NCBI RefSeq assembly: GCF_007655485.1
Contig: NZ_VJXQ01000002.1
Coordinates: 259,812 to 323,811 of the forward strand
Origin: Halobellus captivus
Lineage (GTDB): Archaea > Halobacteriota > Halobacteria > Halobacteriales > Haloferacaceae
Reading direction: 5' to 3'
Length of the DNA stretch: 64,000 nt
In this document: positions 31,189 to 43,553 of the stretch, piece after piece
How the letters are laid out: the number at the start of each line of letters is the position of its first letter
Position numbering within the stretch: the stretch's first letter is position 1
Notes under the pieces: generated by a model
What the model saw: only the letters and a program-made list of their open reading frames with translations
The model's database searches: none
What the model was told of the DNA's origin: nothing
Position numbers and translations under genes: made by a program

Positions 31189-32250
31189 TCAGGCGAACTG
31201 TTCGCGGTCCGGAACCCCGTCGCGGCCGAGGAGGATCTCCTGGGCCTCGACGTCCTCGAAGGCCGCCACCAACCCGCCGATCTCCAGCACGCCGTCGTCG
31301 GTTTCCAGACGCAGCGACGCGACCTCTTCGGACGCTTCCAGCGTGGCGGTCTGGACTTCGCCCTCGACGATCACGGGTTCGCCGGTCTCGACGTCCCGCC
31401 CCGTGATCGAGGCGTAAAACGGTCCGTTCAGTTCGCGGACGTCCTTCACGGCCCTGCGGATCGACGCGTAGCGCCGAGGGAACGGTCGACGCTTGCCGTC
31501 GGCGGCGAGCACTTCGGCCGTCGACCACAGGACGGTTCCGAAGAAGCCCGAGACCAGAAAGCCGAGCGCCGAGCGGTTGAAGATGACGCCGTAGCGGTCG
31601 CGGTCGTCGCGCAGGGCGTCTTGCGTCGCGTAGATCGAGTAGTTGCCGTCGGCGACGGCGAGAACCGGCGTGGTGATCCCCCGGCGAGCGCGTGCGACGG
31701 TGGCGACTTCGAGGTAGTCGAACTCGTCCGGATCCGGCGCGCGTGACAGCGGGGTCACGAGCAGGTCGACGCTCACGCCGTCGTCGATGGCGGCGGCGAG
31801 GTCCTCGCGGAACCTGCGGAGCAAATCCGGGGTGAGCGAGAGCACGAGTTCGTACTCGGCGCTCTCGATGATCTCTTCGACGTATCGCAGAATCGTCGAG
31901 CGGGACTTCACGAGGGACACGGCCTCGGTGTCTCGCGCGGGTGCGGTGTACCGCGCTTCCAACTCCGAGACGAGGCTGTCGAGCGACTGTTTCACGTTGC
32001 CGAAGGCGTCATTGGGTTCGACGGCGACGATCTTCATCGGGCGCGACTCCCTGAGTTCGACGAGGCCGCGGTCCGAGAGGCTTCGCACGGTATCGTACAC
32101 CCGGGGCTGCGGGATCTCCGTTCGGTCGGCGATTTCGGAGGCCGTGAGTTCGCCGTGTTCGAGCACGGCCAGGTACGCCTCGATCTCGTACTCGCCGAGG
32201 TTGAAGCGCTCTCCGACCCGCTCCAGCGTCGTGCGGAGTTCGTCTGCCAT
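31189..32250 (-). CDS. TrmB family transcriptional regulator
   Basis: 353 residues. An N-terminal winged helix (about 15-75; [38 protein letters not shown]) is followed by a dimer helix and a C-terminal effector domain with a phospholipase-D-like half ([22 protein letters not shown]) and a beta domain. TrmB-type proteins usually sense sugars and control sugar transport or central carbon genes. It lies 95 bases before priS on the same strand. Whether it regulates replication genes or acts elsewhere is unknown. Confidence 0.9.
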
Positions 32251-32409: not shown

Positions 32410-32436
32410 GCTTCGGCAGCCGATAGCGTGTGTGTG

Positions 32437-33249
32437 ATGGACGAGCACGGAGGGGACGAGGGACCGTCCGGCGTGTACGGTCGCATCGAGGAACTGACCG
32501 CGGCCGGGGAGACGGTCGCGCTCGCGACCGTGACGCGAGTAGACGGGTCTGCCCCGCAGGATCCCGGGGCGGCGATGCTCGTTCGCGCCGACGGGAGCAC
32601 GGAAGGAACGGTGGGGGGCGGAACGGTCGAAGAGCGCACGCGCAGGGCGGCGGTCGACGCGATCGAGGAGCGGACGCCGCGGACCGAACGCTGGGAACTG
32701 CGGCCCGAGGGCAACACCGGTATGGTCTGCGGCGGAGAGATGGACGTGTTCATCAACGTGATTCCAGGAACCCAACGACTGATCGTCGCGGGCGGCGGTC
32801 ACATCGCACAGTCGCTCGCACCGATGGCTGTCGAATTAGGATACGACGTTTTCGTCGTCGACGACAGAGCGGAGTTCGCCACGGAGACGCGATTCCCCGA
32901 CGCGGAGGTGCACGTCGACGACTACGACGCGGGGATCGAGACGATCGGCGTCACGGACAATACCGCCGTCGTCGTCGCCACGCGGAGCGGCCACTTCGAC
33001 CGCGTCGCCTCTCGGGAATCCCTCGAACGGGGGGCGTACTACGTCGGTCTCGTGGCTTCCGACACAAAGGCCGAACGCGTCTCCGAGGGACTGCGAGAGG
33101 ACGGCGTCGCCGAAGACGATTTCGAGCGGTTCCATTCGCCGGTCGGGCTGGACCTCGGCGGGGGAGATCCGGCGGACGTCGCCCTCTCAATCCTCGCAGA
33201 ACTCAACCGCGTCCGAAACGGACTCACGCCCGGTTCAGTCGATTCCTAG
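32437..33249 (+). CDS. XdhC/CoxI-like molybdenum cofactor maturation protein
   Basis: 270 residues. The N-terminal XdhC domain shows TVTRVDGSAPQDPGAAMLV (about 31-49) and GTVGGGTVEE (57-66). The C-terminal Rossmann domain begins LIVAGGGHIAQSLAP (about 107-121). XdhC-type proteins hold and sulfurate the molybdenum cofactor and insert it into molybdenum hydroxylases. The PaoABC-like enzyme genes follow after 271 bases with their own promoter. The usual XdhC cysteine of the GGC-type loop is not seen here. ATG 32437 agrees with the TATA position. Confidence 0.9.
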   Translation: MDEHGGDEGPSGVYGRIEELTAAGETVALATVTRVDGSAPQDPGAAMLVRADGSTEGTVGGGTVEERTRRAAVDAIEERTPRTERWELRPEGNTGMVCGGEMDVFINVIPGTQRLIVAGGGHIAQSLAPMAVELGYDVFVVDDRAEFATETRFPDAEVHVDDYDAGIETIGVTDNTAVVVATRSGHFDRVASRESLERGAYYVGLVASDTKAERVSEGLREDGVAEDDFERFHSPVGLDLGGGDPADVALSILAELNRVRNGLTPGSVDS

Positions 33250-33347: not shown

Positions 33348-33486
33348 CGCCGAGAGCCACCGATCCCACGTGAACGGGTTCCTTTCGTCAGGTGGGGCAC
33401 TTGCTTCCAACACCACTTGCTCTGGATAGCAATCGAGCGGGCCGAGATCAGTGAAAATTCCACCGGTGTCCCCTTCCGGAGGCCGA

Positions 33487-33496
33487 ACCTATATGA
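33487..33496 (+). promoter_or_regulatory. TATA box for the molybdenum hydroxylase operon
   Basis: ACCTATATGA at 33487-33496, about 29 bases upstream of ATG 33521. It supports a separate transcript for the three structural genes. Confidence 0.6.
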
Positions 33497-33520
33497 ATGT
33501 GTGTGAAAGATAATCAAGGT

Positions 33521-34171
33521 ATGTCTACGACAGACGTACCGGACGAGTCGGAGCCGGGGGGAAGCGACGACTCGGGAGGACCATCCCGCCGCGATATCAT
33601 CAAAGGGACGATCGGTGGGACGCTCGTCGCCGCAAACGCCTATCTGTTCAACAATATCAGGCAGACGTCGGCGCAGGGCGACGGGACACCGGGGGTCCGA
33701 GAGCGGTTCTCGAATCAATTGAAACTGACAGTCAACGGTCGCGAGCGCTTCGTCAGAGTCGAAGATCAGGAACGCTTGGCGGAGACGCTCCGATCTAAAC
33801 TCGGGTTGACCGGAACGAAGTTCGGCTGCGATCGGGCGATGTGCGGTGCATGTACCGTACAGATCGAGGGCGATCCGATCTACAGCTGCACGTACTTCAC
33901 GAAAGACGCGGTCGGCAAGGAGGTCACGACGGTCGAAGGGCTGTCGGAGGGCGGTCAACTCCACCCGATTCAGGAGTCGTTCATCGAGGAGCTGGGCGGC
34001 CAGTGCGCGTTCTGTACGCCTGGGATGATTATGTCCGCGAAGTCGTTGCTGGAGGAGAACGGAGATCCCACGCGCGAGGAAGTCAAAGACGCCCTCGAAG
34101 GGAACCTCTGTCGCTGTGGCAACTACGAGAACGAGATCGAGAGCGTGCTCACAGCGGCCGAACGGATGTGA
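33521..34171 (+). CDS. Tat-exported [2Fe-2S] subunit of a molybdenum hydroxylase (PaoA-like)
   Basis: 216 residues. A polar N-terminus leads to the twin-arginine motif PSRRDIIKG (R23, R24) and a moderately hydrophobic segment (about 29-44), a Tat signal. The plant-type ferredoxin domain binds one cluster via C103, C108, C111 and C123. The C-terminal helical domain binds the second via C162, C165, C197 and C199. E. coli PaoA carries the same signal and exports the folded heterotrimer. No lipobox cysteine is visible, so soluble or anchored by the uncleaved signal are both possible. The large subunit begins six bases after its stop. Confidence 0.93.
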   Translation: MSTTDVPDESEPGGSDDSGGPSRRDIIKGTIGGTLVAANAYLFNNIRQTSAQGDGTPGVRERFSNQLKLTVNGRERFVRVEDQERLAETLRSKLGLTGTKFGCDRAMCGACTVQIEGDPIYSCTYFTKDAVGKEVTTVEGLSEGGQLHPIQESFIEELGGQCAFCTPGMIMSAKSLLEENGDPTREEVKDALEGNLCRCGNYENEIESVLTAAERM

Positions 34172-34177
34172 TCGTTC

Positions 34178-36607
34178 GTGTCTGAACACAACTACGTCGG
34201 AAACGATTTCGAGGTACCGGACGGCCGAGCGAAGGTAACGGGCGAGGCGAAGTACGCCGACGACTACCAGTTCGACAACCTGCTGCACGCGAAGACCGTC
34301 AAAAGCCCCTATGCACACGCGAGGGCCAGGAGTATCGACACGTCCGCGGCGGAGGCGATGTCTGGCGTCGAGGCGGTCATCACCCACGAGGACGTTCCGG
34401 ACGCGGCGATCGGGGAACCGGTGCTGGCCGAGGAGCCCCTGACGTTCGGCTATCCGGTCGCCGCGGTCGCCGCAACCGACGAGTACACTGCGGCCGCCGC
34501 CGTCGAAGCGATCGAGGTCGATTGGGAGGTCCTGGACCACGTCGTCGATCCCATCGAGACGCTCAAGCCAGGCAGCCCGAACGCGCGCCCCGAGGGGAAC
34601 GTCCCGACCGGCGAGGCGGGAGGCGAGGGCGCGGAAGGGCAGGGCGGAGCGGAGGCCGCCGCCGACACGATCAAGTGGGAAAACGCCGACTTCAGCGGCG
34701 ATTTCCCCGAGGACCCCGGCGACTTCACGATGGAGTGGAACTGGGGCGACGTCTCGGAGGGGTTCGAGAACGCCGAGACGATCTACGAAGACACGGTCAA
34801 GGCACAACCTCAGCCAACGAATCCGATGGAGCCCCGTTCGACCGTCGCCGAGTGGGGCACCGACGGACACGTCACGATCTGGGGCTCCAGTCAGAGCATC
34901 AGCCTGACGCATACGGGCGTCGCCGGAATGATCGAGAAACCGCCGACGGAGGTCACCTTCATCTGCAACTTCGCCGGTGGCGGCTTCGGTTCCAAGGGGA
35001 CCGCATACCCGCAGATGGCCGTTCCGGCGTTTCTCTCCCGGGAGGTCAACCGCCCGGTAAAGATCCGCGGAACCCGCCGCGAGGAGTTCCACTGGGGCAA
35101 CGGCCGCGCCACGTACATTGCGCGGACGCGGGTCGGCCTCGACGGCGACGGGAACATCACCGCAATGGAGATCGACGCCGTCGGCGACGCCGGAGCCTAC
35201 TCCGCCGACGCGCTGTCGACGCTCAGTTCCGGGTTCAACTCGCTGACGCAGTGTTGGCAACCCGAGACGCTCCGGTTCCGCGGCATCGGCGTGTTCACGA
35301 ACACGCCAAAACGATGGCCGCAGCGGGGTCCCGGACAGAACCAAGCGGCGTTGGCCATCGCTCAAGTCATCGACGAGGCGGCGAAACAGGCGGGCTTGGA
35401 CCCGCTGGACGTCTGTCTGCAGAACTCCCCCGAGAACAGAGGACCGGCGGGCGCAGAGCGACTCCCAATGACGAGCGCGTATCTCGGGGAGGCCTACGAA
35501 CTGGCGGCCGAGGCGATCGACTACGAGGAGAAGCGAGCCCGTTCGGGGACCCGTGAGGGATCGAAGGTGTACGGCGTCGGGATCGCGTCGGCGTCCCACC
35601 AGTCCGGCTACATCGGGTTCGACGGCCTCGTGGTCGTCCACACCGACGGCACCGTCGAGGTGCGGCAGGGTGCGGGGAACCTCGGCACCGAGAGTTTCGC
35701 CGCGGTCGCTCGGATGGTCGCGGACACGATGGGCGCCGACTGGGACGACGTCGAGGTCTCGTGGGGCAGCAGCGACAAGTCCTCGTTCACCCTGGGGCAG
35801 TTCTCTTCGAACACGACGTTCACCGAGGGGCTGGCAAACGTGAAGGCCGCCGAGACGGCCGTTCAGTACCTGAAAGAACTGGCCGCACAGGAACTCGGGG
35901 GAACCGCCGACGCGTACAACGTCGAGAATCACGAGGTCGTCCACGGGCAGTCCGGAGAATCGATCTCCTTCGCCGAGGCCGCTCAGGCGGCCGTCGATGC
36001 AGGCGGCAAGTATACGGCCGAGGAGATCCCGGAACAGTACCAAGAGAGTCTCGTCCCCCTGACGATCGCCGCTGCGAGCGACGCGGTGGGACAGGGGCTC
36101 GTCGCCTTCGGCAAGAGTACCGGCGAAGACCTCGACGGGTTCGTCACCTCCTTCGCCGGGGCGATCGCGGAAGTCTCGGTGGACCTAGAGACCGGCAAGG
36201 TCGTCGTCGAAGAGATGGCGAACTACAACGACTCCGGGACGGTGATCCACCCCGAGAGCTTCAAGGCCCAAGTCGAGGGCGGGGCCATCCAGGGGATCGG
36301 CTACACCCTCTTCGAGCAGTACCGCCACGATCAGGACACCGGTATTCCGGTGAATACGGACCTCTACAAGAGCAAGCCGCCGTCGATCCACGACTACGTC
36401 TCCGGCGACCTTCACGTCGGCGCGGTCGGCGAGCCCGACCCCTTCGGACCCTTCGGGGCCAAAGGTGTCGGAGAACCGCCGTACGGGGCGGCGTCTGGCG
36501 CGGTCGCAGCGGCGATCAAAGACGCCCTCGGCACGAGCTTCAGCGAGTTCCCTGTCACTCCCGACAAGGTGCTTGAGAAGGTCCGCGCAGGGGAGGTGGA
36601 CAGCTAA
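34178..36607 (+). CDS. Molybdopterin-binding large subunit of a xanthine dehydrogenase/aldehyde oxidase family enzyme (PaoC-like)
   Basis: 809 residues from a GTG start. The N-terminal 'hammerhead' domain shows KVTGEAKYADDYQF. GGGFGSKG (267-274) and RGPGQNQ (R383) contact the cofactor, and GAKGVGEPP near the C-terminus contains the catalytic glutamate (about E766). An acidic Gly-rich insertion lies around residues 130-190. The CSFR active-site motif of form I CO dehydrogenase is absent, so an aldehyde or N-heterocycle substrate is more likely. It lacks its own signal and probably rides out on the Tat signal of the small subunit. Substrate unknown. Confidence 0.92.
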   Translation: MSEHNYVGNDFEVPDGRAKVTGEAKYADDYQFDNLLHAKTVKSPYAHARARSIDTSAAEAMSGVEAVITHEDVPDAAIGEPVLAEEPLTFGYPVAAVAATDEYTAAAAVEAIEVDWEVLDHVVDPIETLKPGSPNARPEGNVPTGEAGGEGAEGQGGAEAAADTIKWENADFSGDFPEDPGDFTMEWNWGDVSEGFENAETIYEDTVKAQPQPTNPMEPRSTVAEWGTDGHVTIWGSSQSISLTHTGVAGMIEKPPTEVTFICNFAGGGFGSKGTAYPQMAVPAFLSREVNRPVKIRGTRREEFHWGNGRATYIARTRVGLDGDGNITAMEIDAVGDAGAYSADALSTLSSGFNSLTQCWQPETLRFRGIGVFTNTPKRWPQRGPGQNQAALAIAQVIDEAAKQAGLDPLDVCLQNSPENRGPAGAERLPMTSAYLGEAYELAAEAIDYEEKRARSGTREGSKVYGVGIASASHQSGYIGFDGLVVVHTDGTVEVRQGAGNLGTESFAAVARMVADTMGADWDDVEVSWGSSDKSSFTLGQFSSNTTFTEGLANVKAAETAVQYLKELAAQELGGTADAYNVENHEVVHGQSGESISFAEAAQAAVDAGGKYTAEEIPEQYQESLVPLTIAAASDAVGQGLVAFGKSTGEDLDGFVTSFAGAIAEVSVDLETGKVVVEEMANYNDSGTVIHPESFKAQVEGGAIQGIGYTLFEQYRHDQDTGIPVNTDLYKSKPPSIHDYVSGDLHVGAVGEPDPFGPFGAKGVGEPPYGAASGAVAAAIKDALGTSFSEFPVTPDKVLEKVRAGEVDS

Positions 36608-36609
36608 CC

Positions 36610-37599
36610 ATGCAACAAGATATGATCCCGCCGCTCGAGCACATCGACGCCACGAGCGTCGAGCACGCCGTGCGGCTCTTAGGCGAACACGGCAGTGACG
36701 CGGCAACGATCGCTGGAAACACCGACGAGATCAACTGGCTGAAGAACCGCGACCGCACGCCGGAAGTGCTGGTCGACCTCAAGCCGATCGAGGAGCTGAA
36801 AGAGATCGAAGAGACGAGCGACGGCGGGCTCCGAATCGGCGCGCTCGCGACGCTCTCGGACGTCCAGAACCACGACGCGGTCAACGACGGGTATTCGATC
36901 ATCGCGGACGCGATGGGCGAGATCGCGACGCCGCAGATCCGAAACCAGGGGACGATCGGCGGTAACCTCACGCAGGATTCGCGCTGTTGGTACTACCGCG
37001 GCGGGTTCGACTGCTACCGCGCGGGCGGGAATACCTGCTATGCGATCACCGGCGAGTCGAGCGACCACGCGGTCACCGACTACTCGCGGTGCATCACCGC
37101 GCACCCGTCAGACGGGGCCGTCGCGCTCATCGCACTCGACGCCGAGGTCGTCGTGCGCGGACCTCGAGGAGAGCGACGCGAGCCGCTCTCGGAGTTCTTC
37201 GTCGGCCCCGAGGACAACATCACCGTGATGCACGACCTCGCACACGACGAGATCCTCACTCATATCGAGGTTCCCAGCGACTGGCGCGGCACGAACTTCT
37301 ACTTCGAGAAGGTCCGTGGGCGGGACGCGTGGGACTTCGCGATCGGAAACATCGCCGCCGCGGTCAAAACGAGCGGCGGAACCGTTTCGGATCTCCGCCT
37401 CGTCGCCAACGGGTTCGCGCCGACGCCCAAGCGGCTTCGGACCGCCGAACGGTCGATTCGCGGGAGCCGACTCTCCGAAGGCAACATCGCGTCCGCCTCG
37501 GAGAACGTGCTCCCGAACGCGAGACCGCAATCGGACAACGAGTACAAGCTGAACCTCGCGGACGGACTGGTCAAGCGGGCGCTGAGTAACGTCGCCTGA
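36610..37599 (+). CDS. FAD subunit of the molybdenum hydroxylase with an extra [4Fe-4S] site (PaoB-like)
   Basis: 329 residues. The N-terminal FAD domain has TIAGNTDEINWLKNR (33-47) and QIRNQGTIGGNL (109-120). Directly after comes a cysteine-bearing insertion with C126, C135, C143 and C161, ending HPSDGAVAL. The same kind of insertion in E. coli PaoB and in 4-hydroxybenzoyl-CoA reductase binds a [4Fe-4S] cluster. The CO dehydrogenase C-terminal domain follows. It starts two bases after the large subunit and completes the heterotrimer. Confidence 0.92.
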   Translation: MQQDMIPPLEHIDATSVEHAVRLLGEHGSDAATIAGNTDEINWLKNRDRTPEVLVDLKPIEELKEIEETSDGGLRIGALATLSDVQNHDAVNDGYSIIADAMGEIATPQIRNQGTIGGNLTQDSRCWYYRGGFDCYRAGGNTCYAITGESSDHAVTDYSRCITAHPSDGAVALIALDAEVVVRGPRGERREPLSEFFVGPEDNITVMHDLAHDEILTHIEVPSDWRGTNFYFEKVRGRDAWDFAIGNIAAAVKTSGGTVSDLRLVANGFAPTPKRLRTAERSIRGSRLSEGNIASASENVLPNARPQSDNEYKLNLADGLVKRALSNVA

Positions 37600-38363: not shown

Positions 38364-38556
38364 CCATCGGGACACAGGTTGGCGGCGGACATAAGCACTG
38401 GCCCCACCGTTCAGGTGCGAAAGCGACGAACTGCAGTGGCTCCGAAGTTACGGAGACGTTCTATCGTGGCCGAACAGTTGAACCGCACAGATGCCAGTAA
38501 CGCCCGGAGAGACGCCACTGTTTTCCCGATAGCGCCGCGACAGAAGAGGAGAGCCG

Positions 38557-38889
38557 ATGTCGTTCAACGTGTTCGAGATTCGAGGCGTATACCTCTTCGA
38601 GGGGAGCGAGTCTGTGCCACCGTCGCTGGAGGGCTACTACAACGACGCCGAAGATCGATACGAGATCCCGGAGAAGGGCGATTTGAATGCGCTCAGAAAC
38701 GAGTGGCGTCTCGTAACCGACCTCGACGCGTACCGCGTCGTCTTCGACCGCGACCCGCCCGCGGACGTACGCTCGACCGCGGTCTTCGTCGAGGAAGGCC
38801 CGATCCGAACGACCCTTCTCTGTCCCGACGAGGCGGCGGTCGACCGGGCGCTCGAAGCGGGCGGACGGTTGGTCGAGGGCGAAACATAG
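38557..38889 (+). CDS. Small soluble protein, unknown function
   Basis: 110 residues: MSFNVFEIRGVYLFEGSESVPPSLEG, then mixed alpha/beta sequence ending in acidic ALEAGGRLVEGET. It has no cysteine pair, signal or membrane helix, and I recognise no family. The codon pattern looks genuine (strong third-position GC) and it is the only good frame in this stretch. Confidence 0.55.
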   Translation: MSFNVFEIRGVYLFEGSESVPPSLEGYYNDAEDRYEIPEKGDLNALRNEWRLVTDLDAYRVVFDRDPPADVRSTAVFVEEGPIRTTLLCPDEAAVDRALEAGGRLVEGET

Positions 38890-38988: not shown

Positions 38989-39408
38989 TCAGTTGCTCAC
39001 CCGAACCGAAAGATCCGCGCCGACGAGGCCGAACACCGACCAGGCGATCGTCAGCACCAACAGCATACCGAAGACGACCGGCCACAGCGTCACGCCGAAC
39101 GTCCCCGTGATGAAGCCCGACCACGCGCCGAACAGCCCCGCCACGAGGACGACGAGGGCCGTCGTGATCGCGGCGAACGCTCCGGCGACGACACCAGCGA
39201 CGCGTTCCTCGCCGACGGGTGACAGCCGTGCAGCGACGGTTCCGCCGATGAGCGGCCATCCGACGAGAAGAACGACGTAGCCGACAACGCCGCCGACCTG
39301 CAGACCGAACAGGTGAAGCAGGCCTAATACGGTGATCACCGCGCCCCCGACGACGTCGGGGGAGGCCTTCAGGCCGCTGGAATCTGAGTGTGTGACGTTT
39401 GTTGCCAT
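38989..39408 (-). CDS. Four-helix membrane protein (DUF5518-like), unknown function
   Basis: 139 residues from ATG 39408. Helices lie around 16-34, 35-54, 64-92 and 96-125, rich in Gly and Val, with the loop ARLSPVGEERVAGVVAGAFAA that recurs in haloarchaeal DUF5518-like proteins. A minus-strand TATA (GTATTTTTATCC, near 39431-39443) is correctly placed. No catalytic residues are apparent. Confidence 0.75.
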   Translation of the reverse strand: MATNVTHSDSSGLKASPDVVGGAVITVLGLLHLFGLQVGGVVGYVVLLVGWPLIGGTVAARLSPVGEERVAGVVAGAFAAITTALVVLVAGLFGAWSGFITGTFGVTLWPVVFGMLLVLTIAWSVFGLVGADLSVRVSN

Positions 39409-39492
39409 AGTTCGCACATCACGTGGCGAGTGGATAAAAATACCGCCGTGACACCCACCGATACCAGTCGCAAAGCGACAAACCGCACGGGG

Positions 39493-40092
39493 CTATCGTG
39501 GCTCGTATCGCTTCACGAGTTCCCAGTACTCCGCGGGCGTGTCCACGTCGGCGAAGATCCGTTCGTCGTCGACGGCGATCTCACGGGTGTCGGTGTCATC
39601 CGCCCGAACGACCGCTCGCGCGCCGCGGTCCTCGGGCGCGGATTCGAGCGCATCGAACGTGCTCGCCGTGAAAAGCGGCGGATGGCCGCTCCCGCCGTCG
39701 ACGGTGGGAACGATGACGTCGCCGCCGTCGGCGGCCGCGGCTGCGAGTGTCTCGACGACAGCGGACGGGGTCACCGGGCAATCGACTGGGTTCAAGAACA
39801 CGCCGTCGGCGTCGCGCTCGTCCGCGTACTCGACGACCACTTGTACCGATGAGAGCATCCCCGACTCGTACGCTGGGTTCTCGCGAACGGTAGCGCCGGA
39901 GAGGTCCGCTCGGGCGCGAACCTCCGCTGCTTCATAGCCGAGAACGACGACCGGTTCGATTCCCGCCTCCGAATACGTCTCGACGAGTCGTTCGACGAAG
40001 CGACGGCCGTCGAACGTCAGCAGGGGTTTCGGAAAGCCGCCCATCCGCGTCGATTTTCCGGCGGCGGTGATCGCGGCGACGAACCTCGACAT
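39493..40092 (-). CDS. MocA-like molybdenum cofactor nucleotidyltransferase
   Basis: 199 residues of the MobA-like NTP transferase fold. ITAAGKSTRMGGFPKPLLTFDG (8-29) is the nucleotide-binding loop, VFLNPVDCPVT (about 98-108) holds the metal-binding aspartate, and GGSGHPPLFTAST (about 131-143) resembles the GHP motif of MocA rather than MobA. MocA makes molybdopterin cytosine dinucleotide, the cofactor used by PaoABC-type enzymes, so its position next to such an enzyme makes sense. It is the last gene of a four-gene operon. Confidence 0.85.
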   Translation of the reverse strand: MSRFVAAITAAGKSTRMGGFPKPLLTFDGRRFVERLVETYSEAGIEPVVVLGYEAAEVRARADLSGATVRENPAYESGMLSSVQVVVEYADERDADGVFLNPVDCPVTPSAVVETLAAAAADGGDVIVPTVDGGSGHPPLFTASTFDALESAPEDRGARAVVRADDTDTREIAVDDERIFADVDTPAEYWELVKRYEPR

Positions 40093-40533: not shown

Positions 40534-41688
40534 TTACTCTTCGGGAACCCGCGTCCACGCGCCGGTTGTTAGCCGTCTCACGTCACCCTCGCGCTTCAAC
40601 CGGTGGAGGGTGATTCGGCAGGTCTCCTCGGTGACGTCGAGGCAGGCACTGATCTCGGTGGTGGACGCCGACGGGAGGGAGTCGAGCACGTCGATCGCGC
40701 GTTCGCCGTGGTCTTCGGGGCTGAAACTCTCGGCGTTCATCGGTGCCGCCCCGTACTGCTGCATCACGTTTCGGCTCTGCGTCTCGGTCGTTTGCTCCGT
40801 CTCCCCGAGGTCGGGGTCGTACTTTCTGACCGCATCCCGAAGCGCGTCGAACCCCGCTGCGCCGTCGACGACCGTGGTCCCGCTGGGTCCGTCCACGCGG
40901 TAAACGGGGGCGGTGAACACCGCGTCAGGTGTTCGTGGCGAGTTCGAGACTTGCGCGTTGTCGTCTCGCGGGCCATCCTCGTCGCTGTCGTCTTGCGGGC
41001 CATCCTCGTTGGCGACGTCTTGTGAGTCTCCCCCGTCGACGTCGGCTGTTGGGTCGGCTCCGTCGACGCCCGTTTCCGGGTCTGCGGCCTCTGCCCTGCC
41101 ATCCGCACCGACTCCGTCGTCCTCGGGACTGTCGAGGGCGCTCCGAGGCCGGAGCGGCTCTCTACCGGGCGTACCGCGGACATCGAACGCAGACAGCTTC
41201 GCGACGGTCTGCCTCGCGAGTTCGAGATCCCGTCCAACGGCCGCGGTGGCCCGGCGTGAACCCACCGCGTCCGCTACTGATCGGCCATCCAGACCGGGAA
41301 CTACCTCGGCTGCCTCGCGTATCGCCTCCGGTGTCGCCGTCGGCTGACCGGCCGCGAACGTCCGATCGGCGATCTCCCTCGCGAGCGCGAACGCCGCGTC
41401 GGTTCCGCCCAGTTCACGAGCGGTGGCGACCGCCTCACAGGCCGTCCACGACGACGGGAATCCGTCGGCGGTAACCGATGAGTCCACCGGCATACCGCCA
41501 CCGTCGGAACGTGAGCGTATCTCGGCCGTAGACTGGGTGTTGTCGAGCGAATGCGGAACAGAGACAGCACATCGGTACGTGATATCGACATCTCCGAACA
41601 CGTACTCCGCTCGCGATCGGGTCGGTCGCCGTCGGTACGCGTCGATCGATAGCGGATCCGAAAACAGCGTGATCGAGACGTCGGACAT
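40534..41688 (-). CDS. Thioredoxin/DsbA-like protein fused to a winged-helix domain
   Basis: 384 residues. The first ~165 begin VSITLFSDPLSIDAYRRRP and resemble a DsbA/FrnE-type thioredoxin fold with a helical insertion (EAIREAAEVVPGLDGRSVADAV), but the CxxC active site is missing. An acidic, Gln/Asp-rich linker (about 185-255) has short internal repeats (EDGPQDDSDEDGPRDD). The C-terminal ~65 residues look like a winged helix (HGERAIDVLDSLPSASTTEISACLDVTEETCRITLHRL). It may regulate or chaperone the molybdoenzyme. The domain calls are my reading of the pattern. Confidence 0.65.
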   Translation of the reverse strand: MSDVSITLFSDPLSIDAYRRRPTRSRAEYVFGDVDITYRCAVSVPHSLDNTQSTAEIRSRSDGGGMPVDSSVTADGFPSSWTACEAVATARELGGTDAAFALAREIADRTFAAGQPTATPEAIREAAEVVPGLDGRSVADAVGSRRATAAVGRDLELARQTVAKLSAFDVRGTPGREPLRPRSALDSPEDDGVGADGRAEAADPETGVDGADPTADVDGGDSQDVANEDGPQDDSDEDGPRDDNAQVSNSPRTPDAVFTAPVYRVDGPSGTTVVDGAAGFDALRDAVRKYDPDLGETEQTTETQSRNVMQQYGAAPMNAESFSPEDHGERAIDVLDSLPSASTTEISACLDVTEETCRITLHRLKREGDVRRLTTGAWTRVPEE

Positions 41689-41732: not shown

Positions 41733-42692
41733 TTACTCGCGTCCGTCTGCGGGCTCCTCGCGCGCGGAGTCGCCGCCGTCGGTGGCTTTCGAGCCGCCGA
41801 TCTGCCAACTCGTCGGCGAGTATTTCTCGGCGTACTCCTCGACGGTGACGCGTCCGGTGATCATACTCTTCGTGATCGCCCACTCGTTCGGGCGGAGCGC
41901 GAAGTAGACGTGGCCCATCACCAGCGCCAACAGCGCGACGGCGAAGAAGTCGTGGAAGACGAAACTCCACGCGATCAGCCCGGGCGCGTCGGCCGTCCCG
42001 AGGCCGAACTGAACGCCGAGGAGGGAGAACTCACGCGTCGCCCCCCACAGCGGTTCCAGACTCACCCGTCGAAGAAGAACGAACCCGGTCGCGATCACGG
42101 CGAGAGAAGCGCCAGTGACGCCCCAGTGTAAGAGCTTCTGTGCGCTCGGGTACTCGAACTGCCTGGGGTATTCCTCGGTCTGTCCGATCAGGTTCCTGAA
42201 CCGTCGCCAGAGGTCTTTGGCGTCTGCGACGCCGAACCACATCTTCGACCACGTGCCCTTGTACGCCACGTGCGCAACGTGGAAGATCACGTATCCGATG
42301 AGGACGACCGCCGATACGATGTGTACGTCGAGCCACGACAGCCCCGGCACCGCCCGGAGTGTCACCTCCTTGTTCATAATCACGAAGCCGGAGAGCATCA
42401 GCGCAAAAATCGAGATCGCCATCACCCAGTGAGAGACCCGTTGTGCCAGAGAGAACCGTTTGATGTCATCGACACCTTGCTCCTCCAGTGACCGCTCGAC
42501 CTCCGACTTCGATGGATCGTCCGGCCGCGTCGTGTGGTCAGTCGGATTCCACAGCTCGCGTAGTATGTAATGGACCAAAAACGTGAAGGTCCCAAGGAAT
42601 GCGAACACGAGCAAAATGTCCCAGCTCAGGCCGACAATGACCTCACGCCCCGCCCGTTGCGCGTATCTGAATATATCGATTCCGAGAGGCAT
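41733..42692 (-). CDS. b-type cytochrome, formate dehydrogenase gamma-like
   Basis: 319 residues with five likely membrane helices (around 22-43, 87-106, 123-144, 190-208, 243-265). Histidines at 88, 124, 138, 141, 189, 247 and 261 include the heme b ligand set of the FdnI/PhsC superfamily, and RPNEWAITKSMITGRVTVEEYAEKY is the characteristic C-terminal region. Such subunits pass electrons from periplasmic Fe-S enzymes to quinone. As first gene of the accessory operon beside a Tat-exported molybdoenzyme, it is the likely electron outlet. That pairing is inferred. Confidence 0.88.
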   Translation of the reverse strand: MPLGIDIFRYAQRAGREVIVGLSWDILLVFAFLGTFTFLVHYILRELWNPTDHTTRPDDPSKSEVERSLEEQGVDDIKRFSLAQRVSHWVMAISIFALMLSGFVIMNKEVTLRAVPGLSWLDVHIVSAVVLIGYVIFHVAHVAYKGTWSKMWFGVADAKDLWRRFRNLIGQTEEYPRQFEYPSAQKLLHWGVTGASLAVIATGFVLLRRVSLEPLWGATREFSLLGVQFGLGTADAPGLIAWSFVFHDFFAVALLALVMGHVYFALRPNEWAITKSMITGRVTVEEYAEKYSPTSWQIGGSKATDGGDSAREEPADGRE

Positions 42693-42712
42693 ATCTTAAT
42701 GATCTTCATACC

Positions 42713-42727
42713 AAGACTTAAACTTAG
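42713..42727 (-). promoter_or_regulatory. Promoter of the cytochrome b accessory operon
   Basis: On the minus strand, CTAAGTTTAAGTCTT has TTTAAG centred about 28 bases before the cytochrome ATG at 42692. The surrounding 60 bases are unusually AT-rich. Confidence 0.55.
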
Positions 42728-42815
42728 GGTAGCCGGAATATGTCGGTCTATGACACAGCAGTGGCGTCACTCGATTTGCGGCCCTCCGAAGGGGGCTGCG
42801 GACGAACCACGGTGC

Positions 42816-43553
42816 TCACATATACATTCGATCTTCGGGTAACTCCTCGTTGTGCTCTTCCATCCGCTCGGCGAGTTCGGCGTAGTACTGTTCGACTTCG
42901 GCGGCGAACGCTTCGAGCGGTCCGGCGTCGATGCCGATGTTGTAGACCTCTTCGACGGTCTCGACGAGGCGGATCGAGGCCTGGATATCCGGAACTTGCG
43001 CGTGAACGGGCGTGACGAAGGTGCAGACGCCCAGCGGCGAATCGAGTCCGCGCTCGATCAGCGCGGCGTTGGTGCCATCGAGGAAGCCGCGGCCCATCGC
43101 CGGGATCGATCCTCCGCGGAGTCGCCGCTCGCGGTAATCGTCGGTCGCGATGTAGTACGTCACGTGCTCGTCGGGTCCGTGCGGAATGGGGATGCCCGAG
43201 AGAATCGCGATTTCGAGCACGCCGTTGGCCTCCGTCCAATCCAAGATGGCGTTGGCGAACGTCCGCCCCGCACCCACGGGAACGAACAGTTCGCCGACGA
43301 GCACGGTCACGTCGAGATTCTCGCGAGAGAACAGCCGCGTGTGGTGCCGCGGTCGACCGCTTTCGAACGGCGTCACCGTCGGCAACCCCTCGACGGACAG
43401 ATGCCCCATCTCTTGGAGATCGAGGTGGTCGACGATGTAATCGGCAGCGGTGAGTCCCGCAAGCCCGTAGGCGGAGAACCCGGCGAGAAGCGTTTCACTG
43501 GGTGCCGTCTCGTGTGTGATCGTGAAACCCGGAGTGTGTTGCGGCGCGCTCAT
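42816..43553 (-). CDS. PAC2 family protein (proteasome assembly chaperone-like)
   Basis: 245 residues. LLAGFSAYGLAGLTAADYIVDHL (21-43) is the PAC2 glycine-rich N-terminus. VLVGELFVPVGAGRTFANAILDW and VLEIAILSGIPI follow, and PDIQASIRLVETVEEVYNIGIDAGPLEAFAAEVEQYYAELAERMEEHNE forms the C-terminal helices. Eukaryal PAC2 assists proteasome assembly. The archaeal role is not settled, though related archaeal proteins bind proteasome particles. Confidence 0.9.
   Translation of the reverse strand: MSAPQHTPGFTITHETAPSETLLAGFSAYGLAGLTAADYIVDHLDLQEMGHLSVEGLPTVTPFESGRPRHHTRLFSRENLDVTVLVGELFVPVGAGRTFANAILDWTEANGVLEIAILSGIPIPHGPDEHVTYYIATDDYRERRLRGGSIPAMGRGFLDGTNAALIERGLDSPLGVCTFVTPVHAQVPDIQASIRLVETVEEVYNIGIDAGPLEAFAAEVEQYYAELAERMEEHNEELPEDRMYM

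Follow-up and report, generated by a model that had tools for sequence, protein, structure and literature searches.

A putative YjbH-like protein without an active-site CxxC in a haloarchaeal molybdenum hydroxylase cluster

A xanthine dehydrogenase-type gene cluster in Halobellus captivus

The window, a 64,000-nucleotide stretch of the Halobellus captivus genome with a GC content of 62-71% in 2-kb steps, contains the genes for a molybdoenzyme of the xanthine dehydrogenase family. On the plus strand, an XdhC-family maturation factor (32428..33249) is followed by a 2x[2Fe-2S] subunit (33497..34171; Fer2_2, E 2.7e-28), the molybdopterin catalytic subunit (34178..36607; PF02738, 3.5e-59; PF20256, 3.2e-47) and the FAD subunit (36610..37599), the first and last of these being annotated by family search. 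They face a group of minus-strand genes headed by CytB, a membrane subunit resembling cytochrome b561 and the formate dehydrogenase gamma subunit (41733..42692; PF01292, 9e-25). After a gap of 44 bases comes P1 (40534..41688), the subject of this analysis, and then, downstream on the same strand, P2 (40094..40507) and a MocA-like molybdenum-cofactor nucleotidyltransferase (39493..40092; NTP_transf_3, 3e-36; MocA, 4.1e-32). Two small genes lie between the groups, one on the plus strand (38557..38889) and one on the minus strand without family assignment (38989..39417), the latter conserved in 7/7 clusters. The reading frame of P1 is genuine, beginning with ATG and encoding 384 amino acids without a CxxC motif, and the Pfam annotation of its neighbors bears out the placement of this gene in a molybdoenzyme cluster by the first-pass annotation.

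Near the N-terminus of the FeS subunit, a hydrophobic stretch comes after the motif SRRDIIK. Because this motif was recognized as Tat-like by eye, and the Pfam TAT_signal family matched only at E 0.11, export of the enzyme is graded only as likely. P2 is a 137-amino acid, all-helical protein that matches no NCBIfam family and no Pfam family over the cut-off. Its predicted structure, a helix bundle with pLDDT 78, found no significant match in the PDB; its identification as TorD was considered and dropped for want of support. The C-terminal helix of P2 is strongly conserved (NGMSVFQSVMMKFFFLDELTDHLER).

The cluster is flanked by two further genes of interest. A TrmB-family regulator (31189-32250) is divergent from XdhC; it is 92-94% identical and likewise adjacent in four other close genomes, and was not seen near XdhC in genomes G276 or G191. 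In the window, the next gene on the upstream side of CytB resembles PAC2-family proteasome assembly chaperones (42816-43553). The 20-kb stretches of G276 and G191 showed no such gene next to the cluster, so its association is not constant and it was dropped as a functional partner.

P1 and the enzyme co-occur in an all-or-none fashion in the genomes searched. Whole-genome searches found seven full-length P1 orthologs (E<=1e-156), that of the window included. Of the 170 family genomes, these seven are also the ones with P2 and with a catalytic subunit at E<=1e-100. Within the genus of the window, 6 of 17 genomes possess all three and 11 possess none, some of the 11 being incomplete assemblies. 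Eleven genes are shared by all seven clusters, namely those for XdhC, the FeS, molybdopterin and FAD subunits, three small proteins, MocA, P2, P1 and CytB. P1 is the least conserved of these, with 58-61% identity to its four close orthologs, compared with 79-93% for the catalytic and FAD subunits, CytB, MocA and P2. Much of the divergence falls in the linker and one loop.

Four of the seven clusters (G217, G276, G320 and G191) encode a second cysteine-less paralog, P1', beside the small gene that corresponds to 38557 in the window and that comes after P1' in those clusters (L013:6362-7213, L015:6902-7762, L016:6774-7685 and L049:12419-13294). P1' is missing at that place in the window, Halobellus rufus and G219. 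The corresponding place in the window (38376..38556) holds no recognizable remnant, and a search for a remnant in the window or a copy elsewhere in the genome, conducted partly without a positive control, found neither. In a tree of 34 chosen rows, rather than of all matches (the row of locus L108 being from genome G180), P1 and P1' formed sister clades with support of 98/97; the tree carried a long-branch warning, and the grouping may reflect long-branch attraction. When their winged helix-turn-helix (wHTH) domains were compared directly with hhalign, no match was obtained (0.1%).

Domain organization and relatives of P1

Searches with the single P1 sequence (Pfam, NCBIfam and phmmer against the PDB) were weak or empty. 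Pfam PF13743 (Thioredoxin_5) aligned with residues 9-160 at E 0.029, and the score of 14.5 bits is below the curated cut-off of 27 bits for membership. The P1' proteins of G191 and G217 score 39.5 and 14.1 bits, respectively. Winged-helix families matched the C-terminus at E 0.01-0.07 (PaaX/DeoR at 0.01-0.05), and the wHTH was also matched by phrog_633, a phage family annotated as a 'transcriptional regulator' (E 2.8e-4).

Profile comparisons provide stronger evidence. The P1 profile matched a family of haloarchaeal proteins that retain CxxC at 99.1% (hhalign, E 6.7e-19), and three blocks, all encoded on the minus strand, matched individually. Residues 1-166 (41191..41688), the N-terminal beta-alpha-beta part and helical insertion of a DsbA-like thioredoxin fold, scored 98.4%; residues 258-290 (40819..40917), comprising the cis-Pro strand, a hairpin and the last helix of that fold, scored 95.4%; and the last ~58 residues (327-384; 40537..40710), the winged helix, scored 88.9%. 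In controls with 30 column-shuffled templates per block, the maxima were 1.1, 3.8, and 2.2%, respectively. The cis-proline itself, P261, is invariant in 16/16 aligned homologs. C84 is kept in 7/7 orthologs, as is C349 of the winged helix, where C357 is kept in 6/7. Thus, the first-pass annotation of a DsbA-like N-terminus and a winged-helix C-terminus is backed for both halves by remote homology, and the description of P1 as a cysteine-less thioredoxin fold joined to a winged helix is right.

The long acidic linker that had also been described exists, but it does not lie between the two folds. It spans residues 187-257 (40918..41130, minus strand), of which 32% are D or E, with a net charge of -20 and only 33% identity to the four close orthologs. 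Because the blocks on either side, 1-166 and 258-290, both match the CxxC family, this stretch is an insertion inside the thioredoxin fold, immediately before the cis-Pro strand. What separates the thioredoxin fold from the wHTH is a conserved connector of ~36 residues (291-326; 40711..40818, minus strand), which is the best conserved block of the protein (81% among close orthologs).

The active site of the thioredoxin fold is degenerate. The segment DPLSIDAYRRRP (D11-P22; 41623..41658, minus strand) aligns with DPFCTWCWGAEP of the CxxC relatives, and CxxC is found in 0/7 P1 orthologs. Specifically, the two cysteine positions are occupied by S/A and A/G/V in the P1 orthologs and by D/N and G in P1'. 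The FrnE/DsbA oxidoreductases (PF01323) share with P1 a thioredoxin fold with a helical insertion, but P1 lacks the catalytic CxxC of these thiol oxidoreductases. FrnE was also a weaker match of A3, a pooled profile.

Structural modelling contributed little. The AlphaFold model of P1, built from a two-row alignment, had a mean pLDDT of 38.7, which is too poor for judging folds. Foldseek found nothing significant with this low-confidence model; YjbH chains ranked 2, 3 and 5 (E 0.46-0.72) among hemagglutinin fragments, and these model-based ranks are given little weight.

The closest characterized relative of P1 appears to be YjbH/SpxH, an adaptor protein of the Bacillota. A profile built from the seven P1 orthologs had as its top PDB match 6ghb, the Spx complex of Geobacillus kaustophilus YjbH (E 2.4e-5). 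This match covered the thioredoxin part only, the P1 profile stopping short of the winged helix at the C-terminus of 6ghb. The profile of P1' likewise had 6ghb as its top match (E 1e-10), and that of the haloarchaeal CxxC relatives covered it end to end, wHTH included (E 2.5e-45). A3 reached E 4.3e-36; since it contains the CxxC relatives, the separate P1 and P1' profiles were used. Thus, P1 shares with YjbH/SpxH (6ghb, 6gho) the DsbA-like thioredoxin fold with its helical insertion and, through the CxxC relatives whose C-terminus aligns with that of 6ghb, a winged helix on the same chain. P1 differs in having lost both cysteines, in the acidic insertion before the cis-Pro strand, in the extra connector before the wHTH and in its linkage to a molybdenum hydroxylase.

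YjbH/SpxH consists of a thioredoxin domain and a C-terminal winged helix, and its known activity is protein binding, the thioredoxin domain and the helical insertion being the parts that contact Spx (PMC7253607). YjbH of S. aureus lacks CxxC, and in B. subtilis and S. aureus the degradation of Spx does not depend on the cysteines, although they do matter in Listeria (PMC7253607). Given this layout and the S. aureus example, the combination of a winged helix with a thioredoxin domain lacking its cysteines is of a known kind, and the fusion is not the unusual one that it was first taken to be. Among the titles returned by literature searches, none concerned an archaeal YjbH or a YjbH encoded with a molybdoenzyme.

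Other haloarchaeal proteins share the two-domain layout of P1. The broader family (alignment A2) of Thioredoxin_5-wHTH proteins, unlike P1, retains the active site CTWCWG. At 11 loci encoding CxxC or CxxS forms (two with CxxS), a glutathione-S-transferase (GST)-like gene was within 6 kb in ten (L017, L056-L058, L061-L063, L099, L101 and L102), and a molybdoenzyme cluster in none. This arrangement suggests that the YjbH-like protein and the GST-like protein form a thiol-redox pair. A second, separate group of cysteine-less Thioredoxin_5-wHTH proteins, of ~255-418 amino acids, is encoded at 15 loci (L105:9433-11520, L051-L054, L104, L107-L114 and L116). Most of its members have a long, acidic, Gly/Ala-rich N-terminus, and their active site reads DALSAMSWG or DPWDxxGWG. 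At 14/15 loci the gene adjoins one conserved gene, of about 290 amino acids in most, which at the one locus tested matches PADLOC 'TGT' (E 4.6e-22). Around L107 lie genes for a DUF499 protein, a protein weakly matching PglZ and a DNA methylase of the DUF1156 family. Possibly, the acidic-N-terminus protein and its TGT-like neighbor constitute a two-gene defense unit. A class-wide search with A3 yielded matches in 135/292 genomes, most of them apparently generic DsbA or wHTH proteins, and these were not counted as family members. Scans of viral contigs with profiles A2 and A1 found no relative.

Possible functions of P1

The function of YjbH in bacteria, as an adaptor that delivers Spx to ClpXP, cannot persist as such in H. 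captivus, because the genome contains neither Spx/ArsC-family proteins nor ClpP, and ClpX yielded only generic AAA matches below the cut-off; bacterial controls were positive. P1 is therefore not YjbH/SpxH in the proper sense. A related role would be that of an archaeal proteolysis adaptor that hands over a folded client to Lon or the proteasome, for instance a regulator or an enzyme subunit that has not matured. The YjbH superfamily supplies the precedent (PMC7253607), and the PAC2-family gene next to CytB in the window would fit. The absence of the bacterial partners and the inconstancy of the PAC2 gene both count against this role, which seems rather improbable.

The first-pass annotation suggested that P1 would be an unusual DNA-binding regulator. 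In that case, the wHTH would bind the promoters of the cluster, and the pseudo-thioredoxin would serve as the sensor, responding to a ligand or an intermediate of maturation. Besides the profile evidence for the winged helix (Pfam, hhalign and phrog_633), the segment of the recognition helix and wing has a net charge of +2 to +4 in 5/7 orthologs, but two orthologs, with charges of 0 and -2, have lost this basic character. Strongly conserved blocks are found in five genomes upstream of the FeS gene (window 33470-33487, CCCCTTCCGGAGGCCGAA) and of CytB (42711-42730, ACCCTAAGTTTAAGTCTTGG), and CCGGAA is the sole 6-8-mer common to these two promoters, but the three promoters named by the first-pass annotation (32.4, 33.5 and 42.7 kb) do not share any 6-8-mer in the five genomes. 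By analogy with YjbH, a protein adaptor (PMC7253607), a winged helix alone would not imply DNA binding. Moreover, XdhC has a separate TrmB-family regulator as its neighbor, both in the window and in four close genomes, and this is a more ordinary candidate for local control. Overall, the step from fold to DNA-binding regulator is not supported, and such a role for P1 is considered unlikely.

It is also conceivable that P1 is a decaying, functionless duplicate of a CxxC thiol oxidoreductase. Its fast divergence, lost active site and variable linker would be expected of such a gene. However, the reading frame is open in 7/7 clusters, and P1 is retained with the cluster in 7/7 genomes. Outside the linker, third codon positions vary more than first and second positions among the four close orthologs; in the C-terminal part the differences are 0.36-0.43 and 0.06-0.17, respectively. 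This explanation is disfavored and appears exceedingly improbable.

On balance, P1 is probably a thiol-inactive YjbH-like protein that was recruited as a dedicated protein-binding accessory of the probably exported xanthine dehydrogenase-type enzyme, with a role in maturation or proofreading or as an adaptor. Given the YjbH layout, holding or escorting a partner protein is a likelier task for P1 than gene switching through DNA. The reading as a dedicated accessory draws on the finding that YjbH-like lineages differ by partner, whether GST-like, TGT-like or hydroxylase. In this view, P1 is a haloarchaeal member of the YjbH/SpxH-like superfamily, in which CxxC has been lost and the variable acidic insertion has been gained before the cis-Pro strand. 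The lineage would have been recruited to the molybdenum hydroxylase cluster and, on the tree obtained, duplicated into P1 and P1', the latter being missing from some clusters. P1 would be cytoplasmic and, like YjbH with Spx, would use its pseudo-active-site face together with the helical insertion to bind protein. Its client would be a hydroxylase subunit, perhaps the FeS subunit with its Tat-like N-terminus or the apo-catalytic subunit, held in a maturation or proofreading step during insertion of the cofactor delivered by XdhC and MocA and before export. The helical P2 may act alongside P1.

Several considerations weigh against P1 as an accessory. Its low conservation is unusual for the tight partner of a well-conserved enzyme, and the basic wHTH in 5/7 orthologs and the phrog_633 match are consistent with DNA binding. 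XdhC already accounts for the known cofactor insertion, and no other member of the xanthine dehydrogenase family is known to depend on a YjbH-like protein. The folds of XdhC/PaoD, TorD, and NapD differ from that of P1, and XdhC is itself already encoded in the cluster. By its genomic linkage, P1 is a candidate for the molybdoenzyme maturation chaperones. Enzymes of the xanthine oxidase family use dedicated chaperones, and the role proposed for P1 resembles that of XdhC/PaoD, TorD, and NapD, that of a dedicated accessory in maturation or export proofreading of one molybdoenzyme (PMC10609526; PMC2997495).

A more elaborate and very doubtful proposal is that P1 and P1', as two cysteine-less YjbH-like adaptors, form an archaeal proofreading device together with P2. 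The pseudo-thioredoxin faces would hold an immature subunit of the exported molybdenum hydroxylase, and the acidic insertion and wHTH would decide whether it is loaded with cofactor and exported by Tat or passed on to the proteasome or Lon, with C349 and C357 reporting the redox state. If true, the device would represent a class of its own among molybdoenzyme accessories, apart from XdhC, TorD, and NapD.

In P1, the YjbH layout is found in an archaeon without the known bacterial target or protease. In addition, YjbH-like lineages are tied to different partners: the CxxC form to a GST-like gene, the acidic-N-terminus form to a TGT-like gene and P1/P1' to the molybdenum hydroxylase. YjbH-type function in the absence of Spx and ClpXP thus becomes approachable in a compact gene cluster, and an extra maturation step for exported xanthine dehydrogenase-type enzymes could emerge.
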